This document shows, one piece after another, positions 28,818 to 37,850 of a stretch of 64,000 nt of DNA. Made by a program: the position numbers and the translations under genes. The notes beneath the pieces were generated by a model. It saw only the letters and a list, made by a program, of their open reading frames with translations. It ran no database searches and had not been told where the DNA came from. Within the stretch, counting starts at the first letter, position 1. Each line of letters starts with the position of its first letter. Source of the DNA: a virus. The stretch covers positions 49,975 to 113,974 of the IMG/VR virus record IMGVR_UViG_3300010354_000001; one strand, 5' to 3'.

Positions 28818-29561
28818 TTATTTAGTGTACTGCTGAATGAAGTTCCTTTCATCTATAGTAATACTTGTTAAACTTAAAATCCAAGTTAGATAACTCACTA
28901 ATTCTCTTTCGTTATGTCGCACTAAGTCATCCATAGACTGTCCTTTAAACTTACCCTTGTTGAATACATACTTGCCTAATCCTTCTTGGAAAGTAAACCA
29001 GTCACCTAAAATAAACATCTCACCGAAACCTATCACTTGAGCAGTCTCAGGAATGTTTAACTCTTCGTACATCTCTTGCATCTTTTGGAATATCTGAAGT
29101 GTTGCAATCGCATCTACTTTAGCATCGTGAGCCCCTTCCATAATTTTCCCCGTATAAAGCTTATATAAGCTCTCTAGATTACATCTATTTAACTTTTTAT
29201 GTATTGCGTAAGGATCTATAAGATTTTTGTCTGATAGGGATAATTCAAAACCGCACTCTTTTAACTGCCTAGACAGTATAGAAAAATCAAAAGTAGCGTT
29301 AAACATGATTATGTTCTTATAGGCGTTTAGTATTTTAGATATTCTAGGAGCTACTTCAGAGAAACTTGGAGCATCCTTCAAATCTAATATAGAGATTTTA
29401 TGTATTTCTTCTGCGTCTGGAGATATGGGTACTGTAGGTTTTACATAACTGGAATACGATTTCCCGTCACTAGAAACCAGTGCTATCTGCACTATCTCGT
29501 CCCTCCCTAAATCGAGCCCAGTGGCTTCTATGTCTATAGATAAATACTCGTTTTCTCTCAT
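28818..29561 (-). CDS. DnaQ-like 3'-5' exonuclease (DEDDh)
   Basis: ExoI SIDIEATGLDLG (residues 8-19), ExoII FNATFDFSIL (83-92) and ExoIII GAHDAKVDAIATL (about 143-155) give the D-E-D-D set with the H of DEDDh. It would proofread or trim DNA or RNA. A C-terminal extension of about 80 residues (VFNKGKFKGQSMDDLVRHN) resembles the tail of other phage exonucleases. Its start lies 14 bp from the end of the TnpB element, which inserted just upstream. Confidence 0.85.
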   Translation of the reverse strand: MRENEYLSIDIEATGLDLGRDEIVQIALVSSDGKSYSSYVKPTVPISPDAEEIHKISILDLKDAPSFSEVAPRISKILNAYKNIIMFNATFDFSILSRQLKECGFELSLSDKNLIDPYAIHKKLNRCNLESLYKLYTGKIMEGAHDAKVDAIATLQIFQKMQEMYEELNIPETAQVIGFGEMFILGDWFTFQEGLGKYVFNKGKFKGQSMDDLVRHNERELVSYLTWILSLTSITIDERNFIQQYTK

Positions 29562-29574
29562 ACTAATTAGTCCG

Positions 29575-30825
29575 GACTTGTCCCATTAACATACGTTAAG
29601 GGAGATTATCGGCTTCACCGAGTCTGCTTTAATCACCTCGTATAGTGAGTCTAGTCTTACTAACTCTCCACCAGCGGCCATCCTAGCCGCTTCCTTTGCT
29701 ATATTGATAGAAGCGTTCCTGTCTCTGTGGTGCTTTGCACCACATTTACAAGTCCACTCCCTATCAGACAGTTGCAAACTATCATTTATTCTACCACACT
29801 CTGAACAAGTTTTACTAGAAGGAAAAAATCTATTTACCTCTATAACTTGTTTGCCAACAGAGTTGGCTTTATAATTTAAGTAGTTAAGGAATAATCCCCA
29901 ACCAGAGTCAGCTATTGACATAGCTAACTTATGGTTTTTAACTAAACCTTTAATATGTAAATCCTCTACAGCGAATGCTTGATTCTCGCATTCGCTTACT
30001 AGAGAATTAGAAACTTTATGAGAGAAATCTTTTCTCTTATTAGCTATTCTCTCGTGTAGCTTTGCTACACGGATTCTAGCTTGATTTCTCTTTTTAGAAC
30101 CTTTCTGCTTTCTGCAAAAATCTCTTTGAGATTTTTTTAGTTTACTTAAATTTTCTCTTAAAAACTTATTAGGTTTAACTCTAACTCCGTTAGAAGTAAT
30201 TAAAAAATCTTTTAGACCAAGGTCTAAACCTGTTATACCTTCTTTATGTTTAATATTAGATAAATCTAAATCTTCTACTTCAAATAAACAAACTGCATAG
30301 TAACTACCAGAAGCAGATTTTTTAACTGTTACTTTCTTTAACTTGCCTTCAGGCAAGTCACTTCCTCTAAACTTAACTAAGCCTAGCTTCGGTAGTTTTA
30401 TTTTATTACCAATTAAGGAAGTTCCTTGTATTATGGAGTAAGATTTTTTGCAATACTTGTTTTTAAATCTAGGAAATTTACCTACCCCTTTAAAAAATCT
30501 ATTATAAGCTTCTGCTAGATTACCGCAGGTAATCTGTAATTGTGCTGCTGAAGCAGCACTAAGCCATGTATATTGCTTTTTAAGTTTAGGTAAAAGGTTA
30601 TTCATATCATAATTAGATAAAGATTTACCTGTTCTTAAATATTTCTTTTTACAAATCTCTAACATTTTATTATAGATAAATCTAGAACAACCAAACTCAA
30701 TCTCAAGTTGTTTAACTTGTGATTGGTTTGGGTAAAGTTTAATTTCTCTTGATCTAAACATTATAATTGGAGGTGTCTCCTGATTATATTATACTACGTT
30801 CTTAACGTATGTTAATGGGATAAGT
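29575..30825 (-). mobile_element. IS605/IS1341-type element carrying only tnpB
   Basis: The ends are inverted copies of ACTTATCCCATTAACATACG and five further bases, each with a subterminal hairpin (TTAAC-ATAC-GTTAA), as in IS200/IS605 elements. The left end (30825 side) contains a promoter TTAACA-16 bp-TATAAT. There is no tnpA in the window. AAGTCCG follows the right-end hairpin in all three related loci (here 29572-29578, 37538-37544 and 11345-11351 by strand) and may be part of the end. Two smaller relatives exist at 37353-37541 and 11345-11459. Confidence 0.85.
29586..30761 (-). CDS. tnpB: TnpB RNA-guided nuclease
   Basis: A TnpB of normal size (391 aa): N-terminal FRSREIKLYPNQSQ, RuvC-I GITGLDLGLKDFL (Asp), RuvC-II AVEDLHIKGL (Glu), zinc finger CSECG...CKCG and RuvC-III HHRDRNASINIAKEA (Asp). 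All three catalytic residues are present. TnpB cuts DNA guided by omega-RNA made from the element's own 3' end. The stop codon lies inside the right-end hairpin. A GGAG-ACAC-CTCC hairpin ahead of the start could hide the ribosome site. Confidence 0.95.
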   Translation of the reverse strand: MFRSREIKLYPNQSQVKQLEIEFGCSRFIYNKMLEICKKKYLRTGKSLSNYDMNNLLPKLKKQYTWLSAASAAQLQITCGNLAEAYNRFFKGVGKFPRFKNKYCKKSYSIIQGTSLIGNKIKLPKLGLVKFRGSDLPEGKLKKVTVKKSASGSYYAVCLFEVEDLDLSNIKHKEGITGLDLGLKDFLITSNGVRVKPNKFLRENLSKLKKSQRDFCRKQKGSKKRNQARIRVAKLHERIANKRKDFSHKVSNSLVSECENQAFAVEDLHIKGLVKNHKLAMSIADSGWGLFLNYLNYKANSVGKQVIEVNRFFPSSKTCSECGRINDSLQLSDREWTCKCGAKHHRDRNASINIAKEAARMAAGGELVRLDSLYEVIKADSVKPIISLNVC

Positions 30826-31245
30826 GTGGATTCTAATAAATCTATCCATGTGCCTAAAAGGAAATTTATTGGCTATATACATGGTTTCCTGCAGTTCTAC
30901 ATTATCTATATAGTAGTGGGGTTTCTCTGGATCAAACTTAATCAACCCTGACTTTATAAGTCCTGAGATTATTTTATCTAACTGTTTGTGTAGATCTGCG
31001 TGAATCTCCCTATCAAGTATTATTAAGTTTCCGTTAAACCCATTCTCTCGATCAAAGTCTATATGGTGTATATCAAATCTGTTGTCGGGGTAAAATCCGT
31101 GTTTAGCTTCAAATTCATCAGCTAAAGCATAGCGATCATCATAATTACGCTTCCTGCTTGCAGTCCATCTTTGGATGTATTTAGGATAAAAAAGTCTCTT
31201 CTTCTTTTTCAAGCGTACTTTAATTGTATCCTCAGAGGTCAGCAT
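30802..31245 (-). CDS. HNH endonuclease, tail rewritten by the TnpB element
   Basis: A short HNH homing-type nuclease: RFDIHHIDFDRENGFNGNLI (residues 58-77) and HADLHKQL give the His-His and Asn-His positions. The last residues TYPINIR and the stop come from the inverted end of the TnpB element (30801-30825), so the original C-terminus has been replaced. The only ATG lies within the acceptor stem of tRNA-His, so the true start may be a TTG about 13 codons later. Confidence 0.7.
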   Translation of the reverse strand: MLTSEDTIKVRLKKKKRLFYPKYIQRWTASRKRNYDDRYALADEFEAKHGFYPDNRFDIHHIDFDRENGFNGNLIILDREIHADLHKQLDKIISGLIKSGLIKFDPEKPHYYIDNVELQETMYIANKFPFRHMDRFIRIHTYPINIR

Positions 31246-31346: not shown

Positions 31347-31529
31347 CTACTTCTTTGAAATTAAGGCTATAATTGCTGTAAGTGCCAGTAGCCCCATACC
31401 TACAGCATATGGAATCAGCACTCTATGGGAATAGTCGAAATCAGTACACAAATTTATCCACATGGATACCACTACAGTAAATAGCACTGATATTGCTATG
31501 CCTATCGAACTTACTGACACGCTACACAT
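31347..31529 (-). CDS. Small membrane protein with two helices, 60 aa
   Basis: Two hydrophobic helices (residues 5-24 and 38-57) joined by a short loop (NLCTDFDYSHRVL) and a KK end. The start overlaps the end of the nrdA gene by 19 bp in another frame. Unknown role; a holin-like function is possible. Confidence 0.55.
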   Translation of the reverse strand: MCSVSVSSIGIAISVLFTVVVSMWINLCTDFDYSHRVLIPYAVGMGLLALTAIIALISKK

Positions 31530-34423
31530 TCCTCGGTATTTATCTTAGCGGATAATACTGAATCAGATCTCAAGTAATACAAGGTCTTAACTCCAGTTTC
31601 CCAAGCTTGGTAGTGAACTTCGTGTAAGTATTTACCGTCTATGTCACCTTTTTCTGTTCTACCAAAGAATAAATTTAAAGACTGTGCCTGACATATATGT
31701 TTCTGTCTTGCTGCTGCCTGCTTAATTATAAATCTTTGATCTAACTCATAAGCTGTCTTGAATAGTTTCTTTTCTTCCTCTGTTAAAAAGTCTAACTGTT
31801 GAACACTGCCAGCATTTTTAATTATAGACTTCCATACTTTAGCAGTGTTTTGTCCTTTTTCTTTTAGTAGATTTTCTAGGTAAATATTTTTAACTAAGAA
31901 GCTTCCGCTTAAAGTTTTTTGTAAGTATGCGTTACCTGCTATAGGTTCTATGCAAGGAGTACAGTTACCTGCGATTATAGATATATTAGCAGTAGGAGCT
32001 ATAGCTGTTAAATAACTATTCCTGTTACCTGGATTATCCTCACACTCACCTTTAATCTTAGCAAGTTCTATAGATTTAGCTCTAGCTGCATTTTGAATCT
32101 TCTCAGAGATTATTTTAGCTAAGGCTACCGACTGAACTCCCTCAAAAGGAATCTTTTCTCGCATTAGGTATCCATGCCACCCCATCAGTCCTAAGCCTAT
32201 AGATCTTTCTTTAGAGGCTGAGTAAATAGCTCTTTTATAGTCTCTAGGATTTGCAGTTTTAAGGAATAGGGTGAGTACGTTATCTAATGCTTCTGTCGCT
32301 ATAGAGGATACATACTCTAATTGGTCTATTGGGCATTGTTCTAGGTTTATGCTGCCAAGTACGCATATGGCCGTTCTGTCTTTGCTTGTTGGCAAGACTA
32401 TCTCAGAGCAGTTGTGCACTAAAACTCCTGAGCAATTTAAGTATTTGTCATCTTGAGTGGAAGTTATTATGTAGAAATTGTGATTATCTTCTACAGTGAG
32501 ATCGTAAACTTCTTGCTCCTCATCAAGCTCTATAACACTTACTACTTTGTGATTACCTATCACTATGGATTTATAGTTACTCCAACTACCACCAAAACGC
32601 ATCTCGCTAAAAGTGTAAGGTATTTTGATTCCAGTCTCCTCCCTGTGTTTAGCTAACATACTTCGAGTTAAATCCCCATGTTTATTATATAATTTTTTGC
32701 CTATGGCAATTAATTCTTCGTTAGTTATACCGTTATAATTAGGGTTTAGCTCTCCTTTAGCCATCTTATTCTTACTACTTAACCACCTTTCCCTAGAAGA
32801 CTTATCCATGCGGTAAACCCAGTTGTTAGTGCCAGATATCTCACTGCTAGTCTTTTTTCTGTGTTCTTTGGCTGAGAGCATCTGTAAATTAGCTATGCCG
32901 TCATTTCTGATATCGTTATCTATGTGATCGATGTGATACCCTTTTGGAATATCCCCATTATAATAACTCCAGATCAGCCTGTGTTGTTTGGTATGCCCGT
33001 TACTAGATGACCCTATATGCCTGTAGGGTGTCTCTTTATGCAATCTAGTATACGTGTTGAAAGGCTGTAAAGAATCTCCATTCTTTAGGTTTCCTGCTTC
33101 TATATACTCGCCATTTTTTAGAGCTATTAAATGATCTTTAGTGCATTTGAATTGGCTATTATCATCCAATAACACTTGCACTAACTTCTTAACCCCAGTC
33201 TTAAACGCTACTGCTGCTTTGACTTCATTAGTCCAGAACGCCTCCTGCACCCCGCCCCCACGAACTCCCCTGCGTTTTATTTTAGCCTCTCTGGCACAAT
33301 ATACTGGGAATTTTTTTCTACCTTTAGACTCTTCCGCAAGCTGCTTTATAGTAACCCCGTTACGTCCGTCCGCTACAGCTACAACAGTATCCCCTGAAAA
33401 ACATAAATTACTTTGTTTTATCTCTAACCCTTTCTCTGAGTGGCTTTGCAGTATGTCTTTATTAGACGTGTCTATGTAGTGGATGTAAGGTTCTCCAGTT
33501 TCAATCCTACTCTTTAAAATCCCCTTCCATAAAGTTCTGGCATCTACAGTCTTAACTACCTCTTTTGTATGTGGGCATATTAAATTAAATGATTCTTTTT
33601 TATTTACCGCTTCCATAAAGTCATCAGTAATGTTTATCCCGTGATGAATATTTAAGCACTTTCTATTCTCATCCCCTCCAGTAGGTTTGCGAATGTTTAT
33701 ATATTCCTCGCAATCTGGATGACTAACATCTAGGTAGATAGCTGCCGAAGCTCTTCTGGTCGAGCCTTGGGATATGGCTAATGTATTAGAATCCAAGACT
33801 TTCATGAAGGGGATAGTACCTGAAGATTTTAAAGTCTTCCTAATAGGTGCTCCATGACCTCTTATGTCTCCCATAAAAACACCTAGCCCTCCTCCGCCTG
33901 CTCCTAAGTGGGCACACTCCTCTATAGTCTTATAGATGTCTGTGATAGAATCTCCCATGTAATTTAGAAAGCAGGAAACTAAATTTCCTTTGTTAGTGGC
34001 AGTGTTAGTTAAAACTGGAGTAGCTGGCATGAACCATAACTTAGATATAACTTCATAAAGCTCTGTGGCCTTAAGTATTAATCCTTCAGTTACTTCCACC
34101 TCATCTTTATCATACTGATCTGCTAAAGTAATACCTGCTGCTACTCTAGCAAAGAACTGCTGTGGCCCTTCTACTAGCTTTAGGTTATCTGACCTTAAGA
34201 AATATCTATCTCTTAAAGTCTCCAGCCCAAAATAAGTTAATAGCTTATTTCTGCTGTTATCTAACGGTATATGTTTTTGTAGAGTCTTTACTTTCTGTGT
34301 GTAATTAGGGCTGTCCCAAGAATTACTATCTCCTACCTCTTCTATGGTCTGTGCAAGTAATATGTCCCTAGCTCCTTCTATATCACCTTTATCTAAAGCT
34401 GCTAATATGTCTTTCTTCATCAC
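31511..34423 (-). CDS. nrdA: Ribonucleotide reductase large subunit with intein
   Basis: Class I alpha subunit that reduces ribonucleotides to deoxyribonucleotides. Extein motifs: SCFLNYMGDSITDIY (residues 150-164), GAGGGGLGVFMGDIRGHGAP, SNL|CSEIVLPT, ICVLGSINLEQ and the C-terminal CVACQ redox pair. Without the intein it is 639 aa, on the short side and lacking an N-terminal ATP cone. The intein occupies residues 341-671. nrdB lies upstream in the same unit with a small gene between. Confidence 0.95.
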   Translation of the reverse strand: MMKKDILAALDKGDIEGARDILLAQTIEEVGDSNSWDSPNYTQKVKTLQKHIPLDNSRNKLLTYFGLETLRDRYFLRSDNLKLVEGPQQFFARVAAGITLADQYDKDEVEVTEGLILKATELYEVISKLWFMPATPVLTNTATNKGNLVSCFLNYMGDSITDIYKTIEECAHLGAGGGGLGVFMGDIRGHGAPIRKTLKSSGTIPFMKVLDSNTLAISQGSTRRASAAIYLDVSHPDCEEYINIRKPTGGDENRKCLNIHHGINITDDFMEAVNKKESFNLICPHTKEVVKTVDARTLWKGILKSRIETGEPYIHYIDTSNKDILQSHSEKGLEIKQSNLCFSGDTVVAVADGRNGVTIKQLAEESKGRKKFPVYCAREAKIKRRGVRGGGVQEAFWTNEVKAAVAFKTGVKKLVQVLLDDNSQFKCTKDHLIALKNGEYIEAGNLKNGDSLQPFNTYTRLHKETPYRHIGSSSNGHTKQHRLIWSYYNGDIPKGYHIDHIDNDIRNDGIANLQMLSAKEHRKKTSSEISGTNNWVYRMDKSSRERWLSSKNKMAKGELNPNYNGITNEELIAIGKKLYNKHGDLTRSMLAKHREETGIKIPYTFSEMRFGGSWSNYKSIVIGNHKVVSVIELDEEQEVYDLTVEDNHNFYIITSTQDDKYLNCSGVLVHNCSEIVLPTSKDRTAICVLGSINLEQCPIDQLEYVSSIATEALDNVLTLFLKTANPRDYKRAIYSASKERSIGLGLMGWHGYLMREKIPFEGVQSVALAKIISEKIQNAARAKSIELAKIKGECEDNPGNRNSYLTAIAPTANISIIAGNCTPCIEPIAGNAYLQKTLSGSFLVKNIYLENLLKEKGQNTAKVWKSIIKNAGSVQQLDFLTEEEKKLFKTAYELDQRFIIKQAAARQKHICQAQSLNLFFGRTEKGDIDGKYLHEVHYQAWETGVKTLYYLRSDSVLSAKINTEECVACQ
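32411..33403 (-). other. Intein in NrdA with HNH endonuclease
   Basis: 331 residues from CFSGDTVVAVADG (splice Cys) to SGVLVHN before the next Cys. Splicing blocks are visible: N-terminal block, TKDHLIAL (block B), VYDLTVEDNHNFYI (block F) and LVHN (block G). The central homing domain is HNH-type (HIDHIDNDIRNDGIANLQML), not the more common LAGLIDADG. It sits in the conserved NLC-SEI site of the large subunit. Confidence 0.9.
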
Positions 34424-34825: not shown

Positions 34826-36796
34826 TTAGAAATCTCCCCAATCTGTGTCACCTTTACTGTATTCTGTTGCTCTCGCCTCGAAGAAGTTAGCATGTTCTTT
34901 GCCAGACATCATTAGATCCATCCAATCTAAAGGATTATCCTTAATGCCAAAAATAGCTTTTAATCCTAAGTTTTTAAGTCTGTAGTCTGCGATATATCTT
35001 ATGTAGTGCTTTAACTGTTCTGGGGTTAGCCCATCTACAGCCCCCATCTCGAAACAGGTGTCAATAAAATTATCTTCCAGTCTAACTATCTCTTCACAGG
35101 CATCATAAATTTCTTTTTTAAAGTCTGGATTTCTCAGTAGTTCATACTCTTTGACTAACTCTCTAAATAGGTACGAAACCCCATCAGAGTGGCAGTTCCC
35201 TACTATTGCGTGCTTAAGTCCTCTGCGTACAATTAAAGATCCTTCAGGCATAGTAAAACAGTACACTTTTCCTTTATAATGCTTTCTTTCTTGGTTTACA
35301 GCCTTCCACTTTCCTTCTTTAAGCTTTTTATTTATAGAGACTTTGTAGCTAGTATTGAATTTATCACTCCTATCGCCTGGACGTTCTTGCACAGTACACA
35401 AATACCCTGCTAATATAGCCACAGCTTGGACTTTGTCCCTAGATACTTCGCAAGTAGTTACATAATCTATGAATGAACCGTCCCCATACCTGTCATGCCC
35501 GTCCCAGTGCCCTATTTCTGATATTATGTCTTTGGCTTTTGCTGAACTTAGAGTTTCTAGGTTTATCCAAGATAAAGACTTATCCCTAAATATTATAGGA
35601 ATAATAAAGTGGTAGTTGGCGTACCCTTTCCTATCTAGACTAACTGTATATTTAATACCAGACTCAAGCAATAGCCTTTCTATCCTTTCTTTTTTGCGAT
35701 CTTTTTTTATGTTTAAATTAACACTAGTTCCGCCTGTCCTTTCCCCTAAATTTTTTGGACGTAAGTCCAATGACCCATATGCCTGAACTGCTATTCTTAG
35801 CCTCTCTAGAGGAGTTAACAGACCTTCCCCACCTACCCCACGCCCAGCTAATGGGTATGTGTATCTATTAGAACTTTTAATCTTTGCTAAATCTTTAGCT
35901 TTAATCTTTTGCAGGCTGCTAAATTTGTACCCATCCAGTGAGTCTGAAGGATTGTACTTATAGTTAAATAGTAAATCATGATCTTCGGTGCAGGCTATGT
36001 TTAGCCTAGCTTTACCATCCTTCATGTAAATCAGCTCACCATCAAAATCTTTTTCTATATAATTTATAGGAGTGTCAAACGATATCCCTCTAGTCGTTAA
36101 GTCCATCTGTGCTACTTTTTCCCCAAAAGCGACATCCCTAAATAACTTCCAGCCGTTCTCAGTTAATACCTCGGTTTTATCGTCAAAACAGTTCTCGTCT
36201 TTCACGCTCCAGGTTACTATCTGCCCAACTCCCTTCATTAAGCCCCTTCTAGGAAAGTTCATTAATACTGCGAAAGATGCGAATAAGCTTACCCCTTCTA
36301 TAAATCCGCCAAACACAGCTAAGTTTTTAGCTAGTTGCCTCGGAGTCGGTGCGATGTTAACTCTAGTACCGTCATCTAGAGAGTTTAGGTGCATCATATC
36401 AAATTTATCTCTCATAGCTGCGTAATCTTTAAAAGCCTCATACTCGGAGTCTGGTAAGCCTAAAGTATCATTTAGTTGGCTATATGCCCATGTATGTAAG
36501 ACTTCTGCGTTAGCAAAAGCTGTGAGCATCGCAGCTATTTCAGGCTTAGGAAAGTTCTTTATTAGAGAGGTATTGTAGTTATTCATTACCTCTTGATCTC
36601 CAATTGTAAAAAACCTAAGAATCTGAATTATTAAATTTTTTTCTGGCTCGGTTAACTTCTTATTAAAGTCGTAAATATCATCCGTCATCGGCACTTCAGT
36701 AGGAAGCCAGTGGGCCTTCTGCTGGTTAGTCATGTACTCAAAACAAATCGGATACTCTAAAGGTTTAGGAACCTCTCTCTTAGTTAAAATGCTCAT
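34826..36796 (-). CDS. nrdB: Ribonucleotide reductase small subunit with intein
   Basis: Class I beta subunit that forms the metal-radical cofactor. Extein motifs: QILRFFTIGDQEV (residues 58-70), ANAEVLHTWAYSQL (95-108), FGGFIEGVSLFASFA (162-176) and VKDEN|CHSDGV. Without the intein it is 324 aa, a typical length. The intein (residues 203-534) separates the iron-ligand Glu in KDEN from the ligand His in CHSD. Confidence 0.95.
   Translation of the reverse strand: MSILTKREVPKPLEYPICFEYMTNQQKAHWLPTEVPMTDDIYDFNKKLTEPEKNLIIQILRFFTIGDQEVMNNYNTSLIKNFPKPEIAAMLTAFANAEVLHTWAYSQLNDTLGLPDSEYEAFKDYAAMRDKFDMMHLNSLDDGTRVNIAPTPRQLAKNLAVFGGFIEGVSLFASFAVLMNFPRRGLMKGVGQIVTWSVKDENCFDDKTEVLTENGWKLFRDVAFGEKVAQMDLTTRGISFDTPINYIEKDFDGELIYMKDGKARLNIACTEDHDLLFNYKYNPSDSLDGYKFSSLQKIKAKDLAKIKSSNRYTYPLAGRGVGGEGLLTPLERLRIAVQAYGSLDLRPKNLGERTGGTSVNLNIKKDRKKERIERLLLESGIKYTVSLDRKGYANYHFIIPIIFRDKSLSWINLETLSSAKAKDIISEIGHWDGHDRYGDGSFIDYVTTCEVSRDKVQAVAILAGYLCTVQERPGDRSDKFNTSYKVSINKKLKEGKWKAVNQERKHYKGKVYCFTMPEGSLIVRRGLKHAIVGNCHSDGVSYLFRELVKEYELLRNPDFKKEIYDACEEIVRLEDNFIDTCFEMGAVDGLTPEQLKHYIRYIADYRLKNLGLKAIFGIKDNPLDWMDLMMSGKEHANFFEARATEYSKGDTDWGDF
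35195..36190 (-). other. Intein in NrdB with degenerate LAGLIDADG-type domain
   Basis: 332 residues from CFDDKTEVLTENGWK to HAIVGN before Cys. The penultimate residue is Gly instead of the usual His, a non-canonical but tolerated state in some inteins. The centre (HWDGHDRYGDGSFIDYVTTC, AVAILAGY) resembles DOD/LAGLIDADG inteins. It lies inside the metal-binding motif of the host protein. Confidence 0.85.
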
Positions 36797-37279: not shown

Positions 37280-37346
37280 GGCACGGACATAAAAGGAATA
37301 AATGGAAAACAATGAAAACTGCCGTGCCTATACTCCTATTATAGCA
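37280..37346 (-). promoter_or_regulatory. Promoter and hairpin leader upstream of speD
   Basis: Minus strand TATGC-TATAAT (37346-37336) is an extended -10 promoter. The leader then forms CCGTGCC/GGCACGG pairing (37322-37328 with 37280-37286) around a 35-nt loop followed by TTAAAATTTT, 63 bp before the speD start. It could be an attenuator sensing polyamines, or a plain terminator-like hairpin. Confidence 0.45.
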
Positions 37347-37376
37347 TACCAAACTTATCCCATTAACATACGTTAA
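37302..37376 (+). CDS. Possible micro-protein ending in the mini-element, 24 aa
   Basis: Plus-strand frame MENNENCRAYTPIIAYQTYP plus INIR, with AAAAGGAAT ahead of the ATG. The last seven residues TYPINIR and the stop come from the left end of the TnpB-derived mini-element, as at two other genes. It may be chance. Confidence 0.25.
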   Translation: MENNENCRAYTPIIAYQTYPINIR

Positions 37377-37541
37377 GAATGTAGTATAATATAACTAGGC
37401 ATGATAACCAAGTGTCTATTACGAAAAATACGCCCAGGATGGGCGTAGGTGGAGAGTTAATAAGACTACTTACTCATACGAGAGCAAAAGCAGACTCTGT
37501 GAAGCCGATAATCTCCCTTAACGTATGTTAATGGGATAAGT
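37353..37541 (+). mobile_element. 189-bp TnpB-derived mini-element (no protein)
   Basis: Both inverted ends of the full element at 29575-30825 are present here in the opposite orientation, with nearly the whole tnpB gene deleted. It keeps the left-end promoter (TTAACA 37363-37368, 16 bp, TATAAT 37385-37390) and the right-end scaffold. It is a non-autonomous miniature element. Confidence 0.85.
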
Positions 37542-37544
37542 CCG
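37397..37544 (+). ncRNA. Solo omega-RNA (TnpB guide RNA scaffold)
   Basis: From the left-end promoter, a transcript would begin near 37397 and include hairpin TACGCCC-AGGAT-GGGCGTA (429-447 of 37 kb), GAAGCCGATAATCTCCC, the terminal hairpin and AAGTCCG, followed by guide-position bases TAGCATACTACCGAAAG from the phage. The TnpB at 30 kb could load it in trans. This is inferred from homology and from base-pair changes that keep the stem. Confidence 0.6.
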
Positions 37545-37850
37545 TAGCATACTACCGAAAGATCTACTACCATAATAAAAAGGTGAATAATGAACTTGAT
37601 AATCTGTCTTTGGGTCTTGCATTAACTCCACATGACATAAAGAACCAAGACAGGGATAATAATCTCGTGGAAAATACGTTATTATGTTATTTTCTAGATC
37701 CTCTCTATCTAAGATAAACCATTGCACTTCACATTTGTCATCATAATTATAGTAAACCGCATAGTCAGTAGTCTCTACGGACTTACATGATGCATAACCT
37801 AACTCTTCCAATACACTCTTACAATGCTCGAACTTATCTATTGGATTCAT
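37518..37850 (-). CDS. Unknown protein with element-derived tail, 110 aa
   Basis: A protein rich in Y, C and D (residues 1-95, VETTDYAVYYNYDDKCEVQW) whose last residues TYPINIR and stop are encoded by the right end of the mini-element. The same tail ends the HNH gene at 30802. Family not recognised. It overlaps the MazG-like gene upstream by 17 bp. Confidence 0.6.
   Translation of the reverse strand: MNPIDKFEHCKSVLEELGYASCKSVETTDYAVYYNYDDKCEVQWFILDREDLENNIITYFPRDYYPCLGSLCHVELMQDPKTDYQVHYSPFYYGSRSFGSMLRTYPINIR

Follow-up and report, generated by a model that had tools for sequence, protein, structure and literature searches.

A protein-free miniature of a phage TnpB element with a predicted omega-RNA scaffold

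TnpB is the ancestor of Cas12. Altae-Tran et al. reportedly described, in 2021, stand-alone omega-RNAs of IscB that act in trans in Ktedonobacter racemifer, and virus mini-CRISPR arrays borrow host Cas proteins. Here we analyse a miniature, protein-free element at positions 37353-37544 of a 64,000-nucleotide stretch of viral DNA (the window), which spans C1:49975-113974 of IMG/VR record IMGVR_UViG_3300010354_000001. The whole record is 113,974 bp long and may be incomplete or a fragment, which limits the record-wide negatives given below. Judged from its terminase, ribonucleotide reductase-like genes and tRNAs, the source is a tailed phage. The sequence evidence makes it likely that the miniature is a stand-alone omega-RNA gene, one of a family that the phage TnpB would use in trans and that would home into sibling phages. 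The IscB RNAs reportedly also comprise several guide loci away from one nuclease gene; unlike that case, the phage system involves TnpB, a phage genome, terminal repeats and insertion polymorphism.

The TnpB of IS200/IS605 elements such as ISDra2 is homologous to the phage nuclease, and its omega-RNA (or right-end RNA, reRNA) of about 150 nt overlaps the tnpB 3' end, takes its guide from the right flank and forms a pseudoknot between a helix loop and guide-adjacent bases, as is predicted here (PMC8612924, PMC10278001). Unlike in ISDra2, separate promoter-driven cassettes without tnpB also encode the RNA in the phage, the elements have 25-bp terminal inverted repeats, and no TnpA was found in the record. 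The IS200/IS605 form has subterminal hairpins in place of terminal inverted repeats and inserts without target duplication. The miniature is flanked by an 8-bp direct repeat, and a hairpin lies within each of its 25-bp inverted repeats; a second phage cassette, copy 3, has no duplication. Palindrome-associated transposable elements (PATEs) and miniature inverted-repeat transposable elements (MITEs) derived from IS605-type elements are also short and protein-free, with ends common to a TnpB element (PMC3119063), but the phage cassettes have their own promoter, an RNA structure apparently kept by compensation, and one copy that lacks the ends yet has the RNA. Ascovirus Fanzor1 elements with terminal inverted repeats likewise place an RNA-guided nuclease in a virus without a transposase of its own, in two copies per genome and with the right end inside the reRNA; those elements are eukaryotic, however, and both copies encode Fanzor (PMC10711439). 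Virus mini-CRISPR arrays against related viruses are guide-only units with a nuclease encoded elsewhere (PMC11656645), whereas here TnpB is phage-encoded and the predicted guide is the insertion-site flank. Finally, TnpB works as a gene drive on behalf of the element that carries it (PMC11870625). Judged from sequence, what appears to be new is the combination of features in this phage: promoter-driven TnpB cassettes that hold only an omega-RNA, vary in presence between relatives, retain RNA structure after gene loss and are set in terminal-inverted-repeat elements.

The miniature, the full TnpB element and further cassettes

Coordinates of all features are given in Table 1. The miniature measures 189 bp between the outer ends of its terminal repeats, or 192 bp with the scaffold homology, which runs three bases on to TCCG at 37544. 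It lies on the plus strand and the full TnpB element on the minus strand; their ends are 92% identical over 51 nt on the left and 97% over 58 nt on the right, and the flanks at the guide position differ (TAGCATACTACCGAAAG in the full element versus GACTAATTAGTATGAGA in the miniature). The pattern TTAACA-N16-TATAAT occurs twice in the window against 0.30 sites expected by chance, and both sites fall inside these elements, the second at the left end of the full element (30788-30815, minus). An earlier sequence-only reading had described a protein-free 189-bp element that keeps this promoter and both ends of the TnpB element, inverted relative to the full copy and with a different guide flank, and all of this held on reanalysis. 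Its single TnpB and two-guide system did not. A second nuclease, TnpB2 (390 aa, C1:7483-8655, outside the window), has 60% amino acid identity to TnpB1 and a homologous scaffold at its 3' end (E = 7e-7, profile search), and a whole-record search gives three protein-free cassettes, namely the miniature, copy 3 and copy 4, each scaffold with a different guide-position flank. In all, the record has two genes for TnpB, and TnpB1-type scaffolds are followed by at least four guides. The TnpB2 element itself (C1:7400-8682, also outside the window; L023) has inverted repeats CGGAATAATCCCTTCATAGACAT and ATGTCTATGAAGGGATTATTCCG, ending CGGA/TCCG.

Table 1. Positions of the miniature, its parts and related TnpB features in the window
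Feature	Position	Strand	Basis or remark
Miniature element, promoter and predicted omega-RNA scaffold, no open reading frame (ORF)	37353..37544	+	Homology to full-element ends, copy 3 and copy 4
Left terminal inverted repeat, 25 bp	37353..37377	+	100% complementary to 37517-37541
Right terminal inverted repeat, overlaps RNA 3' hairpin P5	37517..37541	+	100% complementary to 37353-37377
Promoter-like TTAACA-16-TATAAT	37363..37390	+	Pattern count in window
Hairpin P0, TAGGCAT-GATAACCAA-GTGTCTA, miniature copies only	37396..37418	+	Copy 3 comparison
Helix P1, apical loop with pseudoknot strand GGAT (37437-37440)	37429..37447	+	Double-sided changes in 4/6 pairs
Helix P2	37455..37467	+	AGTT/GACT replaced by GGGC/GCCC in TnpB2
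Helix P3, TTACTC/GAGCAA	37470..37487	+	One A.C mismatch in miniature; paired in copies 3 and 4
3' hairpin P5	37518..37531	+	TTAAC/GTTAA, TCTAG/CTAGA, TCAGC/GCTGA among scaffolds
Scaffold 3' end GTCCG; GTCC is second pseudoknot strand	37540..37544	+	Pairing in six scaffolds
Predicted guide TAGCATACTACCGAAAGATC	37545..37564	+	Directly after conserved scaffold end; expected from TnpB biology
TAGCATAC, left copy of 8-bp direct repeat flanking the miniature	37342..37349	+	Repeated at 37545-37552; a single TATCATAC in L032
Full TnpB element, terminal repeats same as miniature	29573..30829	-	Empty in L031 and L032
TnpB1, 391 aa, RuvC D/E/D conserved versus ISDra2 TnpB	29586..30761	-	dN/dS 0.20 versus L009 TnpB
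Predicted omega-RNA scaffold of full element, overlaps tnpB 3' end; guide 29553-29572	29573..29700	-	Scaffold comparison
Copy 4, stand-alone scaffold; TATGCTATAAT promoter element 11466-11476; no terminal repeats; guide 11325-11344	11345..11476 (C1:61319-61450)	-	Scaffold homology

TnpB1 has OrfB_IS605 and TNB domains with the RuvC D/E/D residues, and aligns with ISDra2 TnpB at E = 2e-69; the D191, E278 and D361 positions are kept in the alignment. TnpB1 was compared with the TnpB of relative L009, a 15-kb IMG/VR sequence that is collinear with C1:12066-25866 at 82-87% identity. The ratio of nonsynonymous to synonymous substitution rates (dN/dS) between the two TnpBs, taken outside the RNA overlap, indicates that TnpB1 evolves under purifying selection. 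The zinc finger of both has CKC in its second half, where TnpB2 and ISDra2 have CxxC.

Copy 3 (C1:12697-12895, 199 bp, minus, outside the window) has degenerate ends and a promoter-like TTAGCA-16-TATAAT, and fits exactly between a stop codon and the start codon that follows. The terminal repeats are gone from copy 4; a TATGCTATAAT promoter element like that in the left end of L009 immediately precedes the scaffold, and the promoter, helices, pseudoknot and 3' hairpin appear to have been kept, by compensation. These copies bear on whether the miniature is an ordinary MITE- or PATE-like deletion derivative, its ends kept for the transposition machinery. The scaffold would then be a passenger, because the right end and the omega-RNA overlap. 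Such derivatives of IS605-type elements have been described (PMC3119063), and the miniature resembles them in being short and protein-free, in having perfect terminal repeats common with the full element (itself without a recognised transposase), and in its 8-bp flanking direct repeat. We nevertheless consider this origin unlikely. Copy 4 retains promoter and RNA structure without the ends, which favours RNA function over a mere MITE or transposon relic, and the internal, non-terminal helices P1-P3 and the miniature-only hairpin P0 appear to be kept by compensatory changes.

Compensatory changes in the RNA scaffold

We compared six scaffolds (the miniature, copy 3, copy 4, the full element, the L009 full element and TnpB2), with helices aligned by hand. 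Helix P1 reads TACGCC/GGCGTA in the miniatures, AGCGGC/GCCGCT in the full elements and AGCGTG/TACGCT in TnpB2, and P3 occurs as TTACTC/GAGTAA and CTCACT/GGTGAT. Over five scaffolds, 98% of the cells in P1 and P2 are paired and six pairs are changed on both sides. The covariation score for these two helices is 0.66, compared with 0.25 +/- 0.07 for shuffled data (0/500 shuffles as high), and collapses when the alignment is slid by a single column. RNAalifold alone, run on an automatic alignment, recovered P1 with three double-sided pairs.

Hairpin P0 is joined to P1 in the miniature and copy 3 but not in the full elements, where tnpB starts. In copy 3 it reads CAGGTGC-GATAACCAA-GCACCTG, with a loop identical to that of the miniature. 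The two differ by eight substitutions and all seven pairs are held, an outcome reached in 4,340 of 2,000,000 random placements (0.2%). The same test gave 1.3% (copy 3) and 2.9% (copy 4) for P5 and 0.7% for P1 of the miniature versus the full element, percentages that are rough, given the relatedness of the copies and the dependence between tests. Because P0 is restricted to the miniatures, its compensation would post-date the loss of the protein gene, unless an unseen full element had P0 in its leader. Having diverged after the miniature arose, P0 would not owe its upkeep simply to inheritance from selection on a tnpB-bearing element, and this upkeep argues for RNA function and against a mere MITE.

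In all six scaffolds the P1 loop can pair with the four bases that precede the terminal scaffold G, as GGAT:GTCC, GGAT:ATCC or GGAA:TTCC. We derived this pseudoknot from a published description after noticing the invariant TCCG before the variable flank; ISDra2 has a pseudoknot of this type, and an IS607 TnpB depends on one (PMC10711439). Judged from these comparisons, P0, P1, P3, P5 and the guide-adjacent pseudoknot are kept by compensatory changes. The earlier proposal of a stand-alone omega-RNA scaffold is well supported by comparison, through six homologous scaffolds, compensation in four helices and the pseudoknot, a conserved 3' end before a variable flank, and an empty site in a relative that matches one guide; transcription, TnpB binding and cleavage in trans are predicted.

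Occupied and empty sites, guides and surroundings

In L009 the site of copy 3 is empty, with CTAACTAGATA running directly into ACCACATGGTAAACTTCCC, whereas in the present record the element stands between CTAACTAGATA and ACCAAATGGTAAACTTCCC without target duplication. The predicted guide of copy 3 matches the L009 empty site at 15/16 and 18/20 positions, exactly at the junction. With that site excepted, guide matches elsewhere in the record or its relatives were at chance level only. Polymorphism also runs the other way, as L009 has a full TnpB element at a site that is empty in the present record. At that insertion (L009:9728-9752, 10996-11016) there are 13-15 extra right-flank bases relative to the empty site here, with GTGCTG on both sides; a transduced guide was considered as their source but not adopted, with two sequences to compare.

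Relatives L031 and L032 are unoccupied at the site of the full element, and L032 also at that of the miniature, where CATTA is followed directly by TATCATACTAG; here TATTA and TAGCATAC precede the element and TAGCATACTACC follows it. Since L032 is unoccupied, insertion probably created the 8-bp repeat by duplication. Junctions vary, from no duplication at copy 3 to 8 bp at the miniature. A DDE-type transposition read from the 8-bp repeat was dropped, given copy 3 without duplication, and we claim no mechanism. In every copy the right flank is missing the left-hand target junction; each phage would therefore be protected at its own sites.

The insertion point of the miniature is the promoter region of speD (S-adenosylmethionine decarboxylase), and the 8-bp repeat leaves the speD TATGCTATAAT element intact. 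The RNA could thus be imagined as a decoy or regulator of TnpB in place of a targeting guide, competing with the native omega-RNA or repressing the speD promoter, to which the miniature guide corresponds, by letting TnpB bind there but not cut. The TldR proteins, TnpB relatives with a dead nuclease, serve phages as regulators (PMC13418256). However, TnpB1 keeps its RuvC residues, the remaining copies occupy unrelated gene borders and the miniature's own flank has no upstream target junction, and we regard a regulatory role as very improbable.

Several observations weigh against a homing omega-RNA gene. The match of L032 to the miniature guide is limited to about nine of the first ten bases. 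The correspondence between guide and empty site expected of an omega-RNA is seen at copy 3 and only in part at the miniature. The bases upstream of the inferred targets vary (ATTA, GATA and others) and do not define a target-adjacent motif. The TnpB1 zinc finger (CxxC...CKC) is one residue short in its second half. No Y1 TnpA transposase was found in the 114-kb record, and neither was a serine recombinase, as IS607 would have, nor a tyrosine recombinase. Lastly, P3 and P4 of the miniature each contain a mismatch (A.C and U.C, respectively), which may point to slow decay. It might be a decaying relic of a once functional guide cassette, its ends refreshed by gene conversion with the full copy; the near-identical ends around a divergent centre and the mosaic of 3' end types among copies, like the two mismatches, would fit. 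We judge this improbable, more so than a MITE origin, as the promoter, pseudoknot, P0, P1, P2 and P5 are intact in the miniature and the TnpB dN/dS is low.

The family is carried by only one close relative. An exact terminal-repeat search of IMG/VR gave no match; a scaffold motif found L009 only, plus two chance matches in a tail gene (L027, L028), and a looser motif gave three chance matches in coding sequence (L110-L112). The miniature has no match in Rfam, and no similar DNA was found in GenBank phages. The TnpBs found in bacterial genomes reach about 40% full-length identity at most, and thus gave no bacterial source. Flanks of up to 10 kb per side at eight other phage TnpB loci (L010-L017) contain no second omega-RNA, so the cassette arrangement is not general among phage TnpBs. 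Relatives of the gene neighbouring copy 4 are too distant to yield an empty site, and no relatives were found for the ORF to the right of the miniature. A more distant relative (L086:1250-1276, G002:C1:30448-30474) has a solitary terminal-repeat-like end, ATTAACGTATGTTAAGGGGATAAG, beside an approximately 80-bp direct repeat with no adjoining scaffold.

Two ribonucleotide reductase-like genes lie between the full element and the miniature (31511-34423 and 34826-36796). Both have apparent inteins, seen as long inserts with an HNH-like motif in the first, and the region is thereby rich in homing-type elements. An HNH endonuclease ORF (30802-31245, PHROG match) is immediately upstream of the full TnpB element; its last codons and those of ORF 37518-37850 read TYPINIR-stop, supplied in both by the inserted terminal repeat. 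The speD leader contains a hairpin at 37280-37328 (GGCACGG-35 nt-CCGTGCC) that is strongly conserved in L032, long loop included, and has no Rfam match. Adjoining copy 4, 10900-11345 holds several tRNA-like fragments (GGTTCAAATCC repeats), of which one is called as a tRNA.

A possible route to RNA-only homing

We infer that the cassettes are transcribed, bound by TnpB, and direct cleavage and homing. The miniature would move, or once have moved, as a miniature of the phage TnpB element. RNA polymerase would start at TTAACA-16-TATAAT and make a structured RNA of about 150 nt (P0-P5 plus pseudoknot), its last 16-20 nt copied from the DNA to the right of the element. TnpB1, encoded by the full element about 7 kb away, would accept this RNA in trans, just as it would the RNA from its own 3' end. 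Together they could then cut related phage genomes without an insertion at that site, and repair templated by the cassette-bearing phage would copy the cassette in. Such repair, set off by TnpB when phages co-infect, would be enough to explain spread at the same site but not to new ones. With two further cassettes and their other flanks, one nuclease would have a small set of guides.

A broader proposal, which we hold tentatively and with less confidence than the trans-acting gene itself, is that these are RNA-only homing elements: cassettes consisting of a guide gene alone, with the guide rewritten at each insertion site, which spread among phages by means of a TnpB encoded at another locus and jointly give one nuclease many targets. 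IS200/605 and IS607 are the only known sources of TnpBs (PMC10711439), and a TnpB in terminal-inverted-repeat elements departs from the usual form of these two assigned transposon families. One or two TnpBs with several separately transcribed guide genes are the expected intermediate between a one-guide transposon and a guide array. The phage offers a naturally occurring test case for omega-RNA function in trans, and for the idea that a guide RNA by itself could be a selfish homing element.
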